Source: Nitrospira sp.
GTDB taxonomy: Bacteria > Nitrospirota > Nitrospiria > Nitrospirales > Nitrospiraceae
Length of the DNA: 64,000 nt
Reading direction: 5' to 3'
Assembly (NCBI GenBank): GCA_018242725.1
Contig: JAFEBI010000002.1
Location: 40,237-104,236 of the forward strand
In this document: one piece after another, positions 44,563-64,000 of the stretch
How positions within the stretch are numbered: the first letter of the stretch is position 1
Layout of the letters: each line of letters starts with the position of its first letter
The notes under the pieces: model-generated
Database searches by the model: none
What the model was told of the DNA's origin: nothing
Seen by the model: the letters and a program-made list of their open reading frames with translations, nothing else
Program-made: the position numbers and the translations under genes

Positions 44563-45251
44563 GGGACTGGAGTAGCTAAGACCTATTGACCTCGGAGCGA
44601 TACCAGGCTCTGAGCTGCTGTAACAGGACCTTATGCCACCCGTCGGTGAAACACCATTCACATTCTTTGAGGAACCAATAGAAACCTCTTTTGGGAATGC
44701 CATTGAAACGCCGCAGATGGCGCTTTGCCTGATTCCAAAAGTTCTCGATGCCATTGATGTGATGGTCTTGTTTGCTGACAAATACCTTACTGTGATTCAC
44801 ACGCCTATGATGAAACTCGGACACATCCAACACGTCATAGACTTGAAAGCTGTCCGTATACGCAATACTGCCAGGCAATACTTTCTCGCGAATGATGGGA
44901 GTCAACGTCGAGGCTTTGGCGTCGAGAATGATAGCCGTGTACACTTTCCCACCTCGCTTTAATAAGCCAAAAACGGGGACTTTCCCCGCTGCGCCTCGAC
45001 TTCGGCGACCTTTGCGCACCCCACCAAAATAACTCTCTTGCTTACTGACAATGAGCTGTCTCAAACGCTGATAACACCGCTTCGCCGTGTTGACCTGCAG
45101 GCCGATCAACAGCGCAGCAGCTCAGGCTGTCGTACCAGCTACGAAATGCGCCAGGAACTTCTGCTGAGTCCGGACCGGCAACCGACTCTTGCGCCGATAA
45201 ATCATGCGCTAAATGTACCCCCTTCCAGGGACGCTTAGCTACCCCAGCCCC
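44563..45251 (-). mobile_element. IS1595-family-like insertion sequence, 689 bp
   Basis: Bounded by imperfect 18-bp inverted repeats: GGGACTGGAGTAGCTAAG at 44563-44580 and the complement of GGGGCTGGGGTAGCTAAG at 45234-45251 (two mismatches). It contains one ISXO2-type transposase gene on the minus strand. No 8-bp target duplication is seen (CTGAATAT on the left, TTTTAAGA on the right), which suggests a deletion or an old insertion. It interrupts the brnA fragment. Confidence 0.8.
44576..45205 (-). pseudogene. IS1595-type (ISXO2-like) transposase with an in-frame stop
   Basis: From ATG 45205 the frame reads MIYRRKSRLPVRTQQKFLAH, then FVAGTTA, a TGA at 45122-45124 (codon 28), then AAALLIGLQVNTAKRCYQRL in the same frame. 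Relatives have ARAAA here, so CGA to TGA is the simplest change. Downstream is a full DDE ISXO2 domain: SYFGGVRKGRRSRGAAGKVP, YTDSFQVYD, RVNHSKVF and NGIENFWNQAKRHLRRFNGI. A 177-residue product could only arise from the TTG at 45109 or by readthrough. Confidence 0.82.
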
Positions 45252-45554: not shown

Positions 45555-47249
45555 TTAAGATTGTACCCCTATCGCTTTGAGCGTCGCCTTGAAGATCGGC
45601 GAGGTCTTCGGCTCGACAAAGAGCGACTGGAACGTACGATGCACCATCTCCGTATGGCGTTGATGGTCGGCATGGAAGGACGCGACGGCTTTTTTGCGAT
45701 CCTCCGCGCTATAGCCCACTCGAACGGCGCACCGCTCCAATTCGTCTGCTTCCTCGGGAAGGGAATGCGTCTGGAGATCATGCACCATTTGGAGTTTGTG
45801 TTCGACATCACGCAGAAACAGATAGGCAGCGGTCAGCGCATCACGCTCTTTGCTCGACAGCAATTTCTTCCGGACCAACCGGTCCAAGGAACCCAGCGTG
45901 CTCCGGTCCAGCAAGACCCTCACCTTTCGTCCGGCCAAGACCTGAATGGTCTGCACGAAAAATTCAATCTCCCGAATCCCGCCGGTCCCCAACTTCACAT
46001 TGCGTTGGGTATGGCCACGGTCGGTCATTTTGGCGTCGATCATGTCTTTGACCGCGCGAACGTCTTGCACAATCGCAATCGCCGCGTCTCGATCCATTTT
46101 TTCTCCGGAGCCGAGCACAAACGGCTTGACCATCTTGAGGAACGCCTGCCCGACAGTCTGCGATCCGGCGACCGGCGCAGCCTTCAACAGAGCCAATCGT
46201 TCCCAGACCTGTCCGCGGACTGCATAATACCGCTGATACTCGTCGAGTGATCGAGCGAGCTGCCCGATGGACCCTTCCGCGCGTAACCGCAAATCGACCC
46301 GAAAGATGTGACCCTCTCTCGTGGGTTCAGACAAGACACGCGTCAACTCCCGGGCGAGAATCTCAAAATATTCTTCATTGGAAATGCCGACGCCAGGTGG
46401 GATGGGAGCCCGCCCGCCTTTCGGGGCTCTGGTTTCACCGCCGTGCGTCTCATACAGGTAGATCAGATCGACATCGGAGCTGTAGTTCAACTCATGTCCA
46501 CCGAGCTTGCCCATCCCCATGACGGTGAACCCGGTCTCGACCCATCGCCCTTTTCCAGCTTGATGCATCGGCACGCCATATTGTCGGCGCAGATCGGCAT
46601 CGATGATCTCGTACGCGGCATGGATCAGCACACAGGCCAAATCGGACAATGAGGCTGTCGTCTCCGGCACCGTGGCACGCTTGAGCAGATCCCGGACGCC
46701 GATGCGCAACATCTCCCGCCTCCGAAAACGTCGAAGGGCATCCAGCTTCGTTTCCTTCGCTGTCAGGTGTCCGATGCTTTCGCGAAGCGCCCGCTGAAGT
46801 TCTTTTCTCGTCGGCGCGCGTGAGAGCACCTCTTCCTCTGCCAACCAATACACCAACATCGGGTCTCGGATGAGCGTAAAGGCCAAGGCATCGCTGTTGC
46901 CGAAAATTGCGCACAGCAGGTCAAGCATGCGCGGCCAGGTTCGCAAGTAGTCGAGCAATGATGCACGTGAGACGCTCCCAAACAGCCGTTCCCAATGATT
47001 GAGGGCCTGGTCCGGATCGGCTGTCCGCGAGATGGATTCCAACAGCATCGGGAGGATCTCAGCCAGTCGATTGCGCTGGAGCGGATCACCGGCCATCGCC
47101 TCGAGATTCCGATCCGCCAAGTCAAGATCCCGCAGACCGTAAGCGGATAAGATCACTCGCACCTGCTCGGCATTCTGCTTGGCAGCCAGCAACACCGGTG
47201 TGGGGTCGGGTCCTCCAGATTCCCTCCCTCCAGCCGATACTCGTGACAT
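45555..47249 (-). CDS. GlnE-like protein, N-terminal (deadenylylating) half only
   Basis: About 564 residues; full GlnE is ~950. The nucleotidyltransferase motif is VMGMGKLGGHELNYSSDVDL, with RVDLRLRAEGSIGQLARSLD and KLGTGGIREIEFFVQTIQVL following. GGIREIEF is the form seen in the N-terminal adenylyl-removase half of E. coli GlnE, and the protein ends with the helical domain after it. It presumably removes AMP from glutamine synthetase. It is transcribed away from the ACT-AT gene with 126 bases between starts. GTG 47276 is an alternative start. Confidence 0.85.
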   Translation of the reverse strand: MSRVSAGGRESGGPDPTPVLLAAKQNAEQVRVILSAYGLRDLDLADRNLEAMAGDPLQRNRLAEILPMLLESISRTADPDQALNHWERLFGSVSRASLLDYLRTWPRMLDLLCAIFGNSDALAFTLIRDPMLVYWLAEEEVLSRAPTRKELQRALRESIGHLTAKETKLDALRRFRRREMLRIGVRDLLKRATVPETTASLSDLACVLIHAAYEIIDADLRRQYGVPMHQAGKGRWVETGFTVMGMGKLGGHELNYSSDVDLIYLYETHGGETRAPKGGRAPIPPGVGISNEEYFEILARELTRVLSEPTREGHIFRVDLRLRAEGSIGQLARSLDEYQRYYAVRGQVWERLALLKAAPVAGSQTVGQAFLKMVKPFVLGSGEKMDRDAAIAIVQDVRAVKDMIDAKMTDRGHTQRNVKLGTGGIREIEFFVQTIQVLAGRKVRVLLDRSTLGSLDRLVRKKLLSSKERDALTAAYLFLRDVEHKLQMVHDLQTHSLPEEADELERCAVRVGYSAEDRKKAVASFHADHQRHTEMVHRTFQSLFVEPKTSPIFKATLKAIGVQS

Positions 47250-47375
47250 GTCGCTCTTCTCAGACTGCCGTTTCACGCTTTACGCCTCGCACTTCACGAC
47301 CTCCGCGCATAGCGCGGCTATTATACTGACAGGTTTCTCTACGCACAATGAACCCGTTCGGGTATACTGACGTTC

Positions 47376-49643
47376 ATGCCAAATCGCGTCGCACTACTCG
47401 ACACCGTCCGCCCGCTGTGCCCCGATGTGCCACCCGATCTTCTGCAGGATTTCTTTGCCCGTCTGGATCAAGAATACTTCCAACGGTTCACCCCCTCAAC
47501 GATTGCCGAACATGTCCGACTCACGGCCCAACTGACGCCGGAGCACCTGTGCGAAGTGCTATTTGCCGAACAGCCGGACCAACGCAGTGTCATCACGATC
47601 GTCGCGTACGACTACTTCTCGGAATTCGCAATGATTTGCGGATTGCTCTCAGCCTTTGGGTTGAACATTGAGGAAGGTGATATCTATACATTTTCAGAAA
47701 AAACTGCTCCCCTGTCCGCCCGGACAAGTTGGAGTGAGTACGGACCGCGAGTTCGTCCCAAGGCCACCCCAGGCTTGACTCAGAAGAAGATCGTTGATGT
47801 GTTCCGTGTACATCCAGTCCCTGGGGTGGAGTTAGGAGCCGAACAACAACATCAGCTGACTGCGGCACTCTCCTCAATGATCACCCTGCTGGACAAAGGA
47901 CAGTTTGAGGAGGCACGCTTGACCGTGAACCGTCGTCTCGTGGAACAGCTCGGCAAACGCCGTGGCTCGTTCAGTGGCCTGCTTCATCCCGTACAGATCA
48001 CCTTCGACAACAGTCAATCGCCCGCGGACACAGTCATGGAGATCCGGTCGGATGATACACCGGCGTTCTTGTACGCCTTTGCGAACGCTCTCGCGATGCG
48101 AAATGTGTACATCTCCAAAGCGCAGTTTGATGTTGAAAACGGGAAGATTCATGATCGGTTTTATGTTCGCAATCGCCACGGTCAGAAGCTCACCGATGCA
48201 ACCGATCAGCAGCAGTTGCGCCTCACGGCCGTCCTCATCAAGCAGTTTACCCATGCCCTCACCTGGGCTCCCGATCCGACCAAGGCCCTAGAAGCTTTCG
48301 ACCAATTTCTCGATCTGACGGTCCAGCAGACAAAAGGAAAGGCTCAGCAAGAGGCCTTGGCCTTTCTCAGCGACAAAAAAACCTTTCCCCTTCTCGCCCG
48401 CCTGCTCGGCGCCAGCGATTTTCTCTGGGAGGACTTTCTCCGTCGCCAACACAGTAATCTTTTACCCCTGCTGCAAGACTACCGCGATGCTCCCCTCATC
48501 ACCCCACGAGCCACCCTGCGCAAGGAACTTGATCGTCTGGTCAAACGCGCCAAAACCGATGAGGATCGGAAAGCCGCGCTGAACAGCTTCAAGGACCGCG
48601 AGATGTTTCGTATCGACATGAAGCACATTGTCGAACCGGACACAGCCCTGCCTGATTTCTCCGCCGCCCTCACGCAACTGGCCGAAACCATCCTGGATCG
48701 AAGCTTGAAGGACTGCCAAGCCAAGCTGAACAAACTGTATGGCCCACCGCGACTGGCCAATAAGAAGCCCTGCCCCTTCGCCGTCCTCGGTTTGGGAAAA
48801 TTCGGAGGGAAAGAGCTGGGCTATGCCTCTGACATCGAGGTCTTGTTCGTCTATGGAGATACTGGTCGGACCGGCGGGAAACACCCCATCGACAACAGCG
48901 AATACTTTGAACGACTGGGGTACGAGCTCCTTCAATGGATCGAAGCGAAACAAGAAGGTATCTTCCACGTGGATGTCCGCCTTCGACCTCACGGCGGAAA
49001 GGGCTCGCTCACGAACCCGTTCGATGAAATCGCCAAGTACTATAGCGAGCAAGGGCTGGCCGCCCCGTTCGAGCGCCAATCGATGATCAAACTGCGCCAT
49101 GTCGCCGGCGACCAGGATCTCGGGAAGCGGGTGGAACTCCATCGCGACCACTATGTCTACAGCGGCAAAGCATTGGATCCGACTATCGTTCTCGATGCGC
49201 GACGTCAGCAGCTGAAACAGCTCGTGGAACGAGGCACCGTGAACTTGAAGCACAGCCAAGGCGGGATCGTTGACATTGAGTACGCCGTCCAATATTTGCA
49301 GATACGACACGGACAGCGCCTCCCCATTTTGCGGACCCCCAACACCATGCAGGCACTTGCAGCACTTGTCGATTGTGGAATGGTGACCAGACAAGACGGC
49401 GAGATGCTGCGCAAAGCCTACTTCTTCATCCGGATGCTCATTGACGGCCTTCGTATGGTCCGTGGCAACGCCAAGGATCGCGTCCTTCCACCTGTCGATT
49501 CGGACGAATTTATCTTCCTGGCCCGCCGCGTCGGATACACCACCGACGACTGGCAAGCCGGCGCTCGCCACCTTCAGACCGATATCGCCCAGCACATGAC
49601 ACTCACCAAAGGGTTTTTCGAACGGACGTTCAGGCGGCTGTAA
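47376..49643 (+). CDS. ACT-ACT-GlnE fusion: adenylylating half with regulatory domains
   Basis: 755 residues. Residues ~70-110 (SVITIVAYDYFSEFAMICGL, then LNIEEGDIYTF) and ~205-275 (TVMEIRSDDTPAFLYAFANA, KIHDRFYVRNRHGQKL) look like two ACT domains of the GlnD type. Residues ~465-700 are a GlnE nucleotidyltransferase: AVLGLGKFGGKELGYASDIE, HVDVRLRPHGGKGSL and SQGGIVDIEYAVQYLQIRHG. The GGIVDIE form is that of the C-terminal adenylyl-transferase half of E. coli GlnE. The metal motif is D-x-E instead of D-x-D, which is tolerated in the superfamily. It may adenylylate GlnA under control of a small ligand bound to the ACT domains (inference). Confidence 0.85.
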   Translation: MPNRVALLDTVRPLCPDVPPDLLQDFFARLDQEYFQRFTPSTIAEHVRLTAQLTPEHLCEVLFAEQPDQRSVITIVAYDYFSEFAMICGLLSAFGLNIEEGDIYTFSEKTAPLSARTSWSEYGPRVRPKATPGLTQKKIVDVFRVHPVPGVELGAEQQHQLTAALSSMITLLDKGQFEEARLTVNRRLVEQLGKRRGSFSGLLHPVQITFDNSQSPADTVMEIRSDDTPAFLYAFANALAMRNVYISKAQFDVENGKIHDRFYVRNRHGQKLTDATDQQQLRLTAVLIKQFTHALTWAPDPTKALEAFDQFLDLTVQQTKGKAQQEALAFLSDKKTFPLLARLLGASDFLWEDFLRRQHSNLLPLLQDYRDAPLITPRATLRKELDRLVKRAKTDEDRKAALNSFKDREMFRIDMKHIVEPDTALPDFSAALTQLAETILDRSLKDCQAKLNKLYGPPRLANKKPCPFAVLGLGKFGGKELGYASDIEVLFVYGDTGRTGGKHPIDNSEYFERLGYELLQWIEAKQEGIFHVDVRLRPHGGKGSLTNPFDEIAKYYSEQGLAAPFERQSMIKLRHVAGDQDLGKRVELHRDHYVYSGKALDPTIVLDARRQQLKQLVERGTVNLKHSQGGIVDIEYAVQYLQIRHGQRLPILRTPNTMQALAALVDCGMVTRQDGEMLRKAYFFIRMLIDGLRMVRGNAKDRVLPPVDSDEFIFLARRVGYTTDDWQAGARHLQTDIAQHMTLTKGFFERTFRRL

Positions 49644-51158: not shown

Positions 51159-51551
51159 ATGACCTATCGATGGAGTGCACTGTGCCTGTGCCTATTCCTC
51201 GCGACCGCAGGCTGCGGCGGAAATAAAGCCGAAATCAAGGAGGACCGCCTGACGGTCGGTAAGGTACAAGGGGAAATCAAGGTCGGGATGTCAGCCGCCC
51301 AAGTGGCCGAACTCTTGGGAAGCCCCAATATCGTCACCACGGACGACAAACGCCGCGAGGTCTGGATCTACGACAAGGTGTCGACCGATCGCGTGGATAC
51401 GTCCAGCTCATCCTTTGCGGGCATCATTATTCTAGGCGCCGCATCCCACGACAGTTCCAGTTCGCAGCGTCAACGAACGCTCACGATCATCATCAAGTAT
51501 GACGAAGACAAGAAGGTCCGCGATTTTGCGTACAACTCCACACAGTTCTAA
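51159..51551 (+). CDS. BamE/SmpA-like small lipoprotein
   Basis: 130 residues with lipobox ATAGC after a short signal. The core reads GEIKVGMSAAQVAELLGSPN followed by IVTTDDKRREVWIYD, the pattern of the BamE/OmlA fold. A Ser-rich insertion (TSSSSFAGIIILGAASHDSS) precedes the last strand. It probably sits at the inner face of the outer membrane. It precedes three related lipoproteins on the same strand. Confidence 0.85.
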   Translation: MTYRWSALCLCLFLATAGCGGNKAEIKEDRLTVGKVQGEIKVGMSAAQVAELLGSPNIVTTDDKRREVWIYDKVSTDRVDTSSSSFAGIIILGAASHDSSSSQRQRTLTIIIKYDEDKKVRDFAYNSTQF

Positions 51552-52164
51552 CCCACGTTGCCGGTCTGGGATCCGGCGAACGCTTGTGGCAGTCGCAGGC
51601 CTTACCATATCGAGCCCGTTCATCGGGTGCGTGGCACCGACACAACCGGTTGAACTGTTTCAGTTGGAACCGGAAAGCGCCGCCAAGCGGGCGATGCAAA
51701 CCCGCCTCTTCGAAACCAGAGATGGAACGGAGTTGTTGTCTGCCTCAGCCGCAGTTCTCCAAGACTTGGGTTTCCAGGTCGAAGAAAGCGTGCGCGAGGT
51801 TGGGTTTCTTCGAGCCACGAAAGAACGAAGTGCTCGGGAGTATGGCCAGGACATCACCCGCTTTGTCGTCTTTCTCTTCAGCACACCGCTGATACTCGTG
51901 CAACAACCTCCGATCATCATGCCCGTCGATCTGCATCAAAAAATCGCTGCCACGCTTGTTACTCGACCGGTCAATCCGGAGACCACGCGCCAGGAAGTCA
52001 GGGTCGTGTTCTACCGAGTCGTGTGGCAAGGAGGAGGATCGTCCGGACAACAGGGCATTCCACCAGGCGAACAGCGGATGGAAATGCTGCGCGACTCCGT
52101 GATGTACCAGACCTTCTTTGCAAAATTATCAAAAGCCGTATTTCTGGAACCGTTCGCACTCTGA
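51499..52164 (+). CDS. Lipoprotein paralogue 1 of 3
   Basis: Up to 221 residues. The stretch IRRTLVAVAGLTISSPFIGC looks like a lipoprotein signal, then AAKRAMQTRLFETRDGTELL and VLQDLGFQVEESVREVGFL, the shared motif of the three tandem genes. This copy has an extra hydrophobic segment (ITRFVVFLFSTPLILVQQPP). The start is unclear: ATG 51499 lies inside the preceding gene, and GTG 51586 would truncate the signal. Confidence 0.75.
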   Translation: MTKTRRSAILRTTPHSSNPRCRSGIRRTLVAVAGLTISSPFIGCVAPTQPVELFQLEPESAAKRAMQTRLFETRDGTELLSASAAVLQDLGFQVEESVREVGFLRATKERSAREYGQDITRFVVFLFSTPLILVQQPPIIMPVDLHQKIAATLVTRPVNPETTRQEVRVVFYRVVWQGGGSSGQQGIPPGEQRMEMLRDSVMYQTFFAKLSKAVFLEPFAL

Positions 52165-52174
52165 CCTCGAGGTG

Positions 52175-52612
52175 ATGATGAAGCTGGAGAACGTGAGAGG
52201 AATTCTTACCGTCGTCGGCCTTGTGCTCTTTCAAGGCTGCGCTGCTCCGCAACCCAGTCCGGATCTCCTGGCGCCGACTGAAGCGCAGCTGAAGATTCGG
52301 AGTGCACAAACTCGGTCCTTCGATATCACGGATCGTCAAGTGGCCATGCGTGGTGTCATTGCGGCGCTGCAGGACTTAGGGTTCATCATCGAACGAGCCA
52401 ATGAGCCCTTGGGGCTGGTGACGGCGGCACAGTTCGCCGAACCGAACTTCTACGATGTCGTCGGCGTGACCGTCACGGTGCGCCCGGAATCCGAAGGTCG
52501 CATGCTGATTCGCGCGAACGCCATCTACAACAACAAGCCCATCGAAGATCCTAAGGCGTATCAAAATTTCTTCGCCACGCTGGAACGCGCTCTCTTTGTG
52601 ACCAAGAATTAA
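52175..52612 (+). CDS. Lipoprotein paralogue 2 of 3
   Basis: 145 residues with lipobox LFQGC. The core LKIRSAQTRSFDITDRQVAM and ALQDLGFIIERANEPLGLVT parallels its neighbours, and VTVRPESEGRMLIRANAIYN and PKAYQNFFATLERALFV match the end of copy 3. GAGGTG precedes the paired ATGs at 52175/52178. Shortest copy, so it probably shows the minimal domain. Function unknown. Confidence 0.83.
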   Translation: MMKLENVRGILTVVGLVLFQGCAAPQPSPDLLAPTEAQLKIRSAQTRSFDITDRQVAMRGVIAALQDLGFIIERANEPLGLVTAAQFAEPNFYDVVGVTVTVRPESEGRMLIRANAIYNNKPIEDPKAYQNFFATLERALFVTKN

Positions 52613-53229
52613 TGGACGCGGACTCTTACCAGAGAATCTTTGCGCAACACCTCCTCCCTCTTTCCTGGTTGGACTGGCTCAACCGCTGGGTCCTCGTCCT
52701 CCTTTGTCTGTTGTTGCAGGGATGCCCGACGCCTTACGAACTACGGCATGTCAACCAATGGGACTCCCGTGAGCAAATCTGGCTTTCCGAAGAAAGCCAA
52801 GTCAAGATTCGCACCGCACAATCGCGGGTGTTTGATACTGCGGATCGGCGTAAGATGTTGGCGACGATCGTGTCCACCCTGCAGGACTTGGATTTCAAAG
52901 TGGAAGTGCTTGATGAAGAGCTGGGCCTCGTATCCGGGAAGAAATTTGTCGAGAATGAGCAGATCTATGGCCTCGACTTGAGCTACCTGCTGTATCAACC
53001 CGATACATTGCAGATTTTCAACCGTCATGACCGTACATGGGGTCCCTTTACTCACCGAAGTAATCTTGTCCGCTTGACGGTCACCGTCCGTAAACGCAAC
53101 GAGGCACAACTTGTGGTGCGGGCCAGCGCTCAGTTTTACCTTCGCGCCGTCGAAGACCCTGCGCCCTACCAGCAATTCTTCCGCACGCTAGAGCAAGCCG
53201 TCTTCTTGGAAGGCCACTCCGTGGAATAG
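52612..53229 (+). CDS. Lipoprotein paralogue 3 of 3
   Basis: 205 residues; ATG overlaps the previous stop by one base (TAATG). Signal with lipobox LLQGC, then VKIRTAQSRVFDTADRRKML and TLQDLDFKVEVLDEELGLVS, and PAPYQQFFRTLEQAVFL at the end. An extra segment of ~40 residues (DLSYLLYQPDTLQIFNRHDR) lies in the middle at the same place as the insertion in copy 1. Function unknown. Confidence 0.83.
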   Translation: MDADSYQRIFAQHLLPLSWLDWLNRWVLVLLCLLLQGCPTPYELRHVNQWDSREQIWLSEESQVKIRTAQSRVFDTADRRKMLATIVSTLQDLDFKVEVLDEELGLVSGKKFVENEQIYGLDLSYLLYQPDTLQIFNRHDRTWGPFTHRSNLVRLTVTVRKRNEAQLVVRASAQFYLRAVEDPAPYQQFFRTLEQAVFLEGHSVE

Positions 53230-60636: not shown

Positions 60637-62046
60637 CTACACGTCATAATACATGAAAAACTCGTACGGATGCGGACGCAGTCGCATCGGATCAATCTCT
60701 TTGTTCCGCTTATAGCCGATCCACGCTTCGACGAGGTCTTCCGTAAACACCTCTCCCTTGAGAAGGAACTGATGGTCTTTCTCCAAACTATTGATGGCCT
60801 CATCCAAGCTCCCAGGCATGGTGGGGATACTGGCCGCTTCCTTCGGATCGAGATCGTACAGATCCTTTTCAGCCGGCTCGCCTGGGTTGATCTTGTTCTG
60901 AATCCCGTCAAGCCCCGCCATGAGCATCGCCGAAAATGCCAAATACGGATTGCAGGACGGGTCTGGAAATCGCACTTCAATTCGCTTCGCCTTGGGGCTC
61001 GGCGAATACATCGGAATACGGACGCCCGCCGACCGGTTCCGACTGGAGTAGGCCAACAATACCGGCGCTTCGAATCCCGGGGTAATGCGCTTGTATGAGT
61101 TTGTCGTCGGATTTGTAAAGGCCGCCAGAGCCGGCGCGTGCTTGAGAATGCCGCCGATATAATACAGGCAGAGCTGTGAAATCCCGGCATAGTCTTTCCC
61201 GGCAAAGAGCGGCTTCCCCTCCTTCCAAATACTTTGGTGCGTGTGCATCCCGGATCCTGCATCGCCGAAGAGCGGTTTAGGCATGAAGGTCACCGTCTTC
61301 CCATGACGACGAGCGACATTCTTGACGATGTATTTGTACATCATCATCTTATCCGCCGTGCGCAGGAGCGTATCAAAGCGAATATCGATCTCGGCTTGGC
61401 CGGCAGAGGCCGTCTCATGGTGGTGCTTTTCCACCTCAATGCCGATCTTTTCCATTTCCAGGACCATCTCACTCCGGATATCTTGTTGCGTGTCGGTCGG
61501 CGCGACGGGGAAATACCCTTGCTTATGCCGAATCTTTCCCCCGAGGTTGATCCCCTCTTGGCCCATATTCCATGCGCCTTCTTCTGAATCAAGATAATAG
61601 AAGCCACTGTGGCTCGTCTGATCATAACGCGCGTGATCGAAAATGAAGAATTCTGCTTCAGGCCCCCAGAACGAGTTGTCGCCAATCTTGGTGCTTTGGA
61701 GATACCGCTCCGCTTTTTGCGCGATAAACCGGGGGTCTCGCTCATAATTTTCACGGGAAATCGGATCCACGACATTGCCGGTTAAGCTGAGCGTGGGCAC
61801 CGCTGTAAACGGATCCAAGAAGGCCGTTGTCGGATCAGGGACGACCAGCAAATCGCTATTGTTGATCGCCTTCCAGCCACGGATCGACGATCCGTCAAGG
61901 CCGGAGCCGTCCTTGAACAAGGTTTCCGTCAGTTCGCTCACAGGGATGGTCATATGCTGCCACACACCCGGCAGATCGATGAATTTCAAATCCACCATCT
62001 GCACTCTGTGCTTCTTCGCGAACTCCAAGACCTCACGCACGTTCAT
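60637..62046 (-). CDS. glnA: Glutamine synthetase type I, GlnA
   Basis: 469 residues, dodecameric type I enzyme that fixes ammonium into glutamine. [32 protein letters not shown] and [18 protein letters not shown] are signature regions. Tyr397 in [12 protein letters not shown] is at the position adenylylated in E. coli, so control by adenylylation is likely kept. It follows glnB by 59 bases on the same strand. GGAGGACGGC precedes the ATG. Confidence 0.98.
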
Positions 62047-62105
62047 TGCCGTCCTCCTTTGGAGATCTTCACTGATGACTGTTCACCACTTACGTCTCGC
62101 TCCCC

Positions 62106-62770
<665 letters not shown>

Positions 62771-64000
62771 CTACAACCTCCGATATCCGTTGGTAATAGG
62801 CATCCGCCGATCCTTACCGAGCGCGCGAGGCGTAATTTTGACGCCAATGGGTGCCTGATGGCGTTTGAACTCGCTGCGATCGACCATCGTCACGACGCGA
62901 GTGACCGTGGCGCGATCAAATCCGGCTTTAATGATGTCGTCAGTAGAGCGATCCTCTTCAACGTATGCCTGAAGTATACGATCGAGGACAGAATAGGGGG
63001 GTAATGAATCTTCATCTTTTTGATCTGGCCGTAACTCGGCAGTTGGAGGCCGATCCAACGTCCGCTGTGGGATCACAGGTGTGGAGCCGAGGCCATTCCG
63101 AAATATTGCCAGCGCATAGACCATTGTCTTCGGCACATCCTTGATGACGGCAAAACCGCCGGCCATGTCACCATAGAGCGTGGCATACCCCACACTTAAT
63201 TCGCTCTTGTTTCCAGTAGTCAGCACCAAGTCTCCAAATTTGTTTGACACAGCCATGAGCATAGTCCCGCGAATACGCGCCTGTAGGTTTTCTTCTGTCG
63301 TATCAACCGGCCGATCGCCAAACATTGGGGTCAGTGAGCGACGATAGGATTCAAATGTAGGGGTAATCGAGATCACGCTCAAGTCGATACCCAGATGTCG
63401 TACAAGCTCCACCACATCCGCCTCACTTTCCTGTGATGTGTAGGGAGACGGTAGAAAGACCCCACGCACTCGCTCAGCTCCGAGCGCATCCACCGCAACC
63501 ACCGCCGTTAACGCTGAATCAACCCCACCGCTCAACCCAAGCGTCACCTGCGCAAAGCCGTTCTTCCTCACATAATCCTTGACCCCTAGAACCAAGGCCC
63601 GATAGATCTCTTCAATTTCCTCAACCGGTTCGGTCACGGTCGATTCGATCGAGGGCCGCGTCTTCGGTGCGGTCGGCATTTTCACCGAATAGCGATCAAA
63701 ATCGGCGCCTAGAGTCTCGGTTACCTGGACTTTCCTCCTCGGAGTCCGAGGCTGAGCCTGACGCCCATACGGTACCGCACCCACGCCTACATCAGCCACC
63801 ACCAACTCTTCTCGAAACGCAGCACCGCGAGCCAGCACTCCGCCGGCGCTGTCAAGGATCACGCTACTCCCATCGAACACCAACTCATCCTGACCACCGA
63901 CCATGTTTGCATACGCGACAATCACGTTGTTTTCTTGCGCGCGAGCTGCCAAGAACTGCTCTCTCGAACGTTTTTTCCCATAATGAAATGGCGAAGCACT
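62771..64000 (-). CDS. nadE: Glutamine-dependent NAD synthetase NadE (gene continues off the right edge)
   Basis: C-terminal ~409 residues visible. The N-terminal part is the end of a nitrilase-type glutaminase (ENNVIVAYANMVGGQDELVF, DGSSVILDSAGG). The synthetase domain has the PP-loop VTLGLSGGVDSALTAVVAVD, RIRGTMLMAVSNKFGDLVLT, TGNKSELSVGYATLYGD and FAVIKDVPKTMVYAL. It makes NAD from deamido-NAD using glutamine. The frame stays open to the window edge, so the start lies beyond 64000. Confidence 0.96.
   Translation of the reverse strand, partial: SASPFHYGKKRSREQFLAARAQENNVIVAYANMVGGQDELVFDGSSVILDSAGGVLARGAAFREELVVADVGVGAVPYGRQAQPRTPRRKVQVTETLGADFDRYSVKMPTAPKTRPSIESTVTEPVEEIEEIYRALVLGVKDYVRKNGFAQVTLGLSGGVDSALTAVVAVDALGAERVRGVFLPSPYTSQESEADVVELVRHLGIDLSVISITPTFESYRRSLTPMFGDRPVDTTEENLQARIRGTMLMAVSNKFGDLVLTTGNKSELSVGYATLYGDMAGGFAVIKDVPKTMVYALAIFRNGLGSTPVIPQRTLDRPPTAELRPDQKDEDSLPPYSVLDRILQAYVEEDRSTDDIIKAGFDRATVTRVVTMVDRSEFKRHQAPIGVKITPRALGKDRRMPITNGYRRL

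Follow-up and report, generated by a model that had tools for sequence, protein, structure and literature searches.

A glutamine synthetase adenylyltransferase split into two divergent genes in Nitrospira, with a GlnD-type ACT module on the adenylylating half and a deletion of glnD within its lineage

Regulation by the GlnD-PII-GlnE cascade is textbook knowledge, and the question raised by the locus considered here is what form the control of glutamine synthetase (GS) takes in a Nitrospira sp. in which GlnE is not found as one chain of ca 950-1050 residues. Instead, in the window that was analyzed (a stretch of 64,000 nucleotides from contig JAFEBI010000002.1 of assembly GCA_018242725.1), there are two divergent open reading frames of 573 and 755 residues. 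The first encodes a GlnE half of the adenylyl-removing (AR) type, while the second encodes a half of the adenylylating (AT) type preceded by a module resembling the C-terminus of GlnD. The products are called AR and ACT-AT in the following.

45555..47276, minus strand: AR gene, GlnE N-half of the adenylyl-removing (deadenylylating) type, 573 residues (open reading frame, Pfam, tree)
47277..47375: divergent intergenic region of 99 bp separating the AR and ACT-AT genes
47376..49643, plus strand: ACT-AT gene, GlnD-type C-terminal module and GlnE C-half (adenylylating), 755 residues (open reading frame, Pfam, TIGR01693, tree, AlphaFold2 model)

Each product matches both PF03710 (GlnE) and PF08335 (GlnD_UR_UTase), the two Pfam domains that make up one GlnE half, with E-values of 4e-62 and 3.9e-30 for AR and of 2.9e-44 and 1.3e-15 for ACT-AT. 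With the curated whole-GlnE NCBIfam model, which has a cut-off of 487, the scores are 343.6 and 198.1 bits, respectively, which is what halves of the protein should give. A profile search of the whole host genome (4.0 Mb, 34 contigs, 96% complete) gave no further PF03710 or PF08335 locus, which means that the host is without a full-length GlnE. The original prediction, made from the sequence alone, had described a GlnE divided over two divergent genes at 45555-49643, and it agrees with these results, including the lack of an intact copy elsewhere in the genome. In the divergent promoter region, no sigma-54 or sigma-70 sites were found above chance.

By sequence search alone (phmmer, NCBIfam) the N-half gives the best score for either product, and the assignment of the halves is hence ambiguous at this level. 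A tree was considered that contains 73 GlnE halves in all, including those of E. coli, 24 orthologues of AR and 26 of ACT-AT. All of the AR orthologues cluster with the N-halves of fused GlnE and all of those of ACT-AT with the C-halves, with a support of 100/99 in each case. The branch leading to the AT clade is long (1.3). These results rule out that the two products are copies of one and the same GlnE half, and the deadenylylating and adenylylating identities that had been proposed for them are borne out. As the AR and AT sets are each monophyletic, a single fission event would be the simplest history of the split enzyme.

Both nucleotidyltransferase domains are thus encoded, and their catalytic motifs could be traced in the sequences. 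AR retains SDVDL, RVDLRLR and GGIREIEF, with all three carboxylates as aspartates (D268, D270 and D328). In ACT-AT, GLGKFGGKELGYASDIE, HVDVRLRP and GGIVDIEY are retained, and the carboxylates are D486, E488 and D533.

48378..49631, plus strand: AT nucleotidyltransferase half, residues ca 335-752 (motifs GLGKFGGKELGYASDIE, HVDVRLRP, GGIVDIEY)
48837..48839, plus strand: Glu488, the second catalytic carboxylate of AT (glutamate in 49/49 orthologues)

The glutamate at the second position of the DxD motif is thus fixed among the AT orthologues, and every fused GlnE C-half or AR half examined has an aspartate there. The model matches the E. coli GlnE halves with Z-scores of 40.5 and 38.4, and among the further structural matches are ANT(4') and ANT(4''), which are nucleotidyltransferases of the same fold.

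We now turn our attention to the N-terminal part of ACT-AT, for which two GlnD-type ACT domains had been predicted. Profile, alignment and structural model all bear this out. Residues 23-282 align to the TIGR01693 model of GlnD over its positions 620-842 (E 2.7e-22) and residues 207-282 match PF24931, the ACR9 ACT model (E 6.6e-07); AR has neither match. The module comprises ca 290 residues homologous to the C-terminus of GlnD, and the order of its parts, that is, the post-HD motif, ACT1, the DNxxS linker and ACT2, is the same as in GlnD, at ca 20-25% identity.

47433..47549, plus strand: helical segment like the post-HD motif, residues ca 20-58, YFxxFxPxxIAxH (TIGR01693, alignment)
47550..47894, plus strand: ACT1, residues ca 59-173, with an insert of ca 28 residues and the ligand loop AYDYFSEFA (model, structure matches, alignment)
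47988..48266, plus strand: ACT2, residues ca 205-297, with the ligand loop DDTPAFLYA and, just before it, the DNxxS linker common to GlnD (PF24931, model, alignment)

The AlphaFold2 model (49 sequences, pLDDT 82.5) has two ACT-type units at ca 59-173 and ca 205-297, and the fold is hence supported by prediction as well as by profiles. Over residues 3-187, the solved structure that matches best belongs to the ACT region of the 180-kDa glutamate dehydrogenase (Z 13.9), followed by single ACT-like domains of GL3/R (Z 8.3/8.2). Y34 and H46 of the post-HD segment, as well as D79, Y80, F84, G89, D227, P229, F231 and L232 of the ACT domains, are invariant in the 49 orthologues, and the loops DYFSEF and DDTPAF of the two ACT domains are nearly so. 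The protein is not itself a GlnD: Pfam finds no HD domain in ACT-AT, the GlnD nucleotidyltransferase is likewise lacking, and the score with the curated whole-GlnD model is 78.8 bits against a cut-off of 519, coming from the ACT part only. A recent origin of the module as a copy of the Nitrospira GlnD was also considered, but is unsupported, since the ACT modules of GlnE fall into one group and those of GlnD into another, and a long branch joins the two.

The distribution of the pair was followed in 198 genomes of the phylum Nitrospirota. In the class to which the window belongs, nearly every member sampled has an orthologue that spans both the ACT module and the AT half. In other classes the usual form is a single frame of ca 1050 residues that holds two GlnE halves. 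The split arrangement goes back to the ancestor of one class within the phylum, namely Nitrospira and its relatives. The AR partner adjoins ACT-AT, usually divergently and in a few cases (L058, L059) convergently, and the pair is present in N. defluvii (FP929003) and in N. moscoviensis (NZ_CP011801), of which the latter also bears GlnD. Since it is kept across the whole class, the arrangement is not due to chance. In a scan of named genomes, the nearest relatives were Nitrospira sp. UW-LDO-01 and further Nitrospira metagenome-assembled genomes, and the 80 of 253 matches listed are all from Nitrospira or other Nitrospirota, except for one record titled Nitrosospira.

The next question concerns GlnD itself. 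In the profile search, the host genome has no GlnD; a weak second match, on contig C30, is the ACT domain of a RelA/SpoT-like protein. The place where the gene would be expected lies within the window:

60637..62046, minus strand: glnA, the single type I GS gene of the genome, with Tyr397 in EKDLYDL
62047..62105, minus strand: glnB-glnA junction of 59 bp, where relatives hold glnD (ca 2.7 kb)
62106..62444, minus strand: glnB (PII), with Tyr51 of the T-loop retained

Canonical relatives have their genes arranged as glnB-glnD-glnA, and amtB immediately precedes glnB in them. Some 50 relatives are without glnD at the glnBA locus, with junctions equal to that of the window or somewhat longer, and the lengths in GlnD-less genomes fall in two ranges, 60-81 vs 190-290 nt. 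The genes flanking the locus match on both sides in the GlnD-bearing genome G110, which identifies the absence of glnD as a deletion at a conserved locus. The gene is absent also from G147, a genome assembled as a single contig.

Within the genus, GlnD is absent from 61 of 79 genomes and present, whole or partly, in the other 18. The ammonia monooxygenase gene amoA was matched in 47/61 of the GlnD-less and 2/18 of the GlnD-bearing genomes (Fisher p = 6e-7, not corrected for relatedness). One of these two exceptions, G167, looks coherent. The other, G070, was rejected as a counterexample; it has its own glnB-glnA junction without glnD, and the fragment of GlnD in this assembly probably stems from contamination. 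The window's own assembly is one of the 14 GlnD-less genomes that gave no amoA match. It groups with amoA-bearing genomes and is 96% complete, and the gene possibly lies on a missing contig; the tree placement suggests that the organism is a comammox bacterium. In the glnA tree, three genomes that keep glnD (G204, G214 and G167) are set apart from the main canonical group, and the trees put G204 among GlnD-less genomes. Together with the differing junction lengths, this placement points to one or a few losses of glnD within the lineage of the window.

It is important to note what was retained after the loss. A GS substrate with an adenylylatable tyrosine is present, Tyr397 of GlnA being kept in 74/74 genomes, of which 55 are GlnD-less, and every GlnB sequence examined has Tyr51. 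Neither GlnE half is interrupted by a stop codon in any GlnD-less genome in which it was located, among them genomes of ca 2-3 Mb, with the reservation that some halves are cut by contig ends and that the region fetched for G223 did not cover the gene. Selection was measured on the ACT-AT gene as pairwise medians of the ratio of nonsynonymous to synonymous substitution rates (dN/dS). ACT2 is under strong purifying selection, with 0.04 in the main GlnD-less clade vs 0.072 in GlnD-bearing relatives, and the AT half has 0.057 in the former clade. ACT1 and the linker evolve faster than the AT half.

On the basis of these results, we consider it fairly probable that the locus encodes a two-subunit GS adenylyl-/deadenylyltransferase, with AR as the eraser and ACT-AT as a writer set by its GlnD-type ACT module and by PII. 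The AR subunit would take AMP off Tyr397 of GlnA and the ACT-AT subunit would put it on, presumably as parts of one assembly. The AT activity would be set by an amino acid, most simply glutamine, binding to the tandem ACT module, and by direct action of PII (GlnB), which reports 2-oxoglutarate and energy state. In members that have GlnD, the ACT module would be an added second sensor. With the later loss of glnD from the glnB-glnD-glnA operon in the window's lineage, PII would no longer be uridylylated by GlnD, and nitrogen status would therefore have to reach GS through effector-bound PII and the ACT module of the AT subunit, the latter being the remaining route of covalent control.

Some observations weigh against this proposal. 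The glycine of the β1-α1 loop, which is typical of ligand-binding ACT domains and present in most GlnD, is replaced in both ACT domains (DYFSEF and DDTPAF). The exchange of aspartate for glutamate in the AT site could weaken catalysis. Finally, most of the class has GlnD alongside the ACT module, and the latter is thus not simply a substitute for the former. The last point bears also on the suggestion in the original prediction that the fusion lets amino-acid sensing bypass part of the GlnD-PII cascade. The suggestion is supported insofar as glnD is missing from the genome, deleted between glnB and glnA, a loss in the same lineage that goes beyond what had been noted from the sequence. However, the fusion predates this loss, and together with the coexistence this means that it was not made as a bypass.

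Several other explanations have also been considered. In one, the gene has simply undergone fission, the halves assembling and acting like the one-chain GlnE, with the ACT module as a structural docking piece without a ligand. The replaced glycines would fit such a role, as would the faster evolution of ACT1 and the linker and the presence of GlnD in most of the class. However, in GlnD-less genomes ACT2 is conserved as much as the catalytic half, or more, and the invariance of the eight ACT residues listed above is also difficult to reconcile with it, and we regard this explanation as improbable. Slightly more doubtful still is a scenario in which the AT half is a pseudoenzyme that transfers no AMP with a glutamate in place of the second aspartate, and whose role is confined to sensing or to regulating the AR half. 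In its favor are the long branch and the confinement of the fixed glutamate to this clade. On the other hand, every other AT motif is intact, the dN/dS of the AT half is very low, and an AR eraser without a writer would have no substrate. Furthermore, ANT(4') and ANT(4'') use a glutamate at the same position (D-x-E) while being active. Given that the glutamate is fixed, that dN/dS is so low and that D-x-E occurs in these related enzymes, the AT half is more likely to be an active enzyme than a dead one. A change of target, by which ACT-AT would modify PII, or both PII and GS, and thereby take over the reaction of GlnD in GlnD-less strains, appears very unlikely to us. The GlnD-type sensor on ACT-AT and the persistence of Tyr51 after the loss of glnD speak for it, but Tyr51 and the T-loop are needed also for target binding, such that their conservation is weak evidence; moreover, most of the class has both enzymes, and Tyr397 of GlnA is kept.

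A different type of explanation, to which we assign a little less than an even chance, is that the loss of GlnD is unrelated to ACT-AT and came after an Rh-type transporter had taken the place of AmtB, whereby a main target of control by PII uridylylation disappeared. Full-length Amt and GlnD occur together in 14 genomes of the genus, amt adjoins glnB in the canonical members, and almost every GlnD-less genome gives either no Amt match or at most weak ones of the Rh-like type. In comammox clade A, Rh-type transporters have been described in place of Amt (PMC6311188). The amoA-bearing G167 keeps glnD and has broken amt remnants directly upstream of glnB (G167:C50:30933-31312), which suggests that the decay of amtB probably preceded the loss of glnD. 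One genome, G208, has a full Amt match but no GlnD, possibly owing to contamination. This explanation is compatible with the two-subunit mechanism rather than opposed to it, as it concerns why GlnD went and not the identity of the proteins, and it is silent on how GS was regulated afterwards.

As to that, we have considered a stronger version of the two-subunit proposal, in which ACT-AT is the glutamine sensor for GS control in GlnD-less comammox bacteria, its sensor module replacing the GlnD step, and in which it may also modify PII. We view this version as tentative and rather unlikely. A deletion of glnD in M. tuberculosis caused no growth defect (PMC1913930), which indicates that life without GlnD can be tolerated elsewhere.

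It is instructive to compare the split enzyme with known systems. Like E. coli GlnE (PDB 1v4a, 3k7d), it comprises the two nucleotidyltransferase halves, including the motifs and helical parts of each, and GlnA Tyr397 and PII are present; it differs in its two divergent genes, in the ACT module on AT and in having D-x-E for D-x-D there. The match to GlnD begins at the post-HD motif of the latter and extends to its C-terminus, covering both ACT domains and the linker, but the catalytic and HD domains are missing, and the low identity, the long branch, the insert in ACT1 and the altered loops set the module apart. The N-terminal ACT domains of the 180-kDa NAD-glutamate dehydrogenase (7jsr, 9hv0), which give the best solved structural match for residues 3-187, have only 13% identity and no Pfam GDH-ACT match at E 1, and the sequence of ACT-AT is closer to GlnD. 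The plant proteins ACR9 and ACR11 are ACT-repeat proteins without any nucleotidyltransferase, and of the Pfam ACT models that of ACR9 alone matches ACT2. A GlnD-like character has been described for the ACR family (PMC12702975), and co-expression with GLN2 for ACR11 (PMC3173338). In the literature searched, we found no published account of a split GlnE with an ACT-AT fusion, no paper joining GS adenylyltransferase with an ACT domain, and no description of GlnD in comammox bacteria; in PMC6311188, GlnD is named only in a figure legend.

A few further features were observed around these genes. An IS1595-type transposase domain (PF12762) lies at 44576-45109 of the window, with groEL on one side and the AR gene on the other. 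At 51499-53229, three successive genes encode similar small proteins with a motif like LQDLGFxVE...LGLV, which by eye, from the translations, are apparently tandem paralogues. Upstream of glnB, at 62774-64000, is a gene for NadE (NAD+ synthase) that is cut by the window end and has a relative at the same place in G110. The host genome has four PII-family matches and a fifth with an in-frame TAA (C13:89092-89397).

In this class of bacteria, which includes the nitrifying Nitrospira, the bidirectional GlnE is thus divided into what would be a writer and an eraser subunit, with a GlnD-like sensor on the writer, and the AR and AT reactions become testable on separate proteins. The hosts use one molecule as both energy source and nitrogen source, and the GlnD step has been lost from most of the amoA-bearing relatives that were sampled, which offers a natural experiment in the control of GS without PII uridylylation. 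In these GlnD-less relatives, the split enzyme may do part of the job of GlnD.

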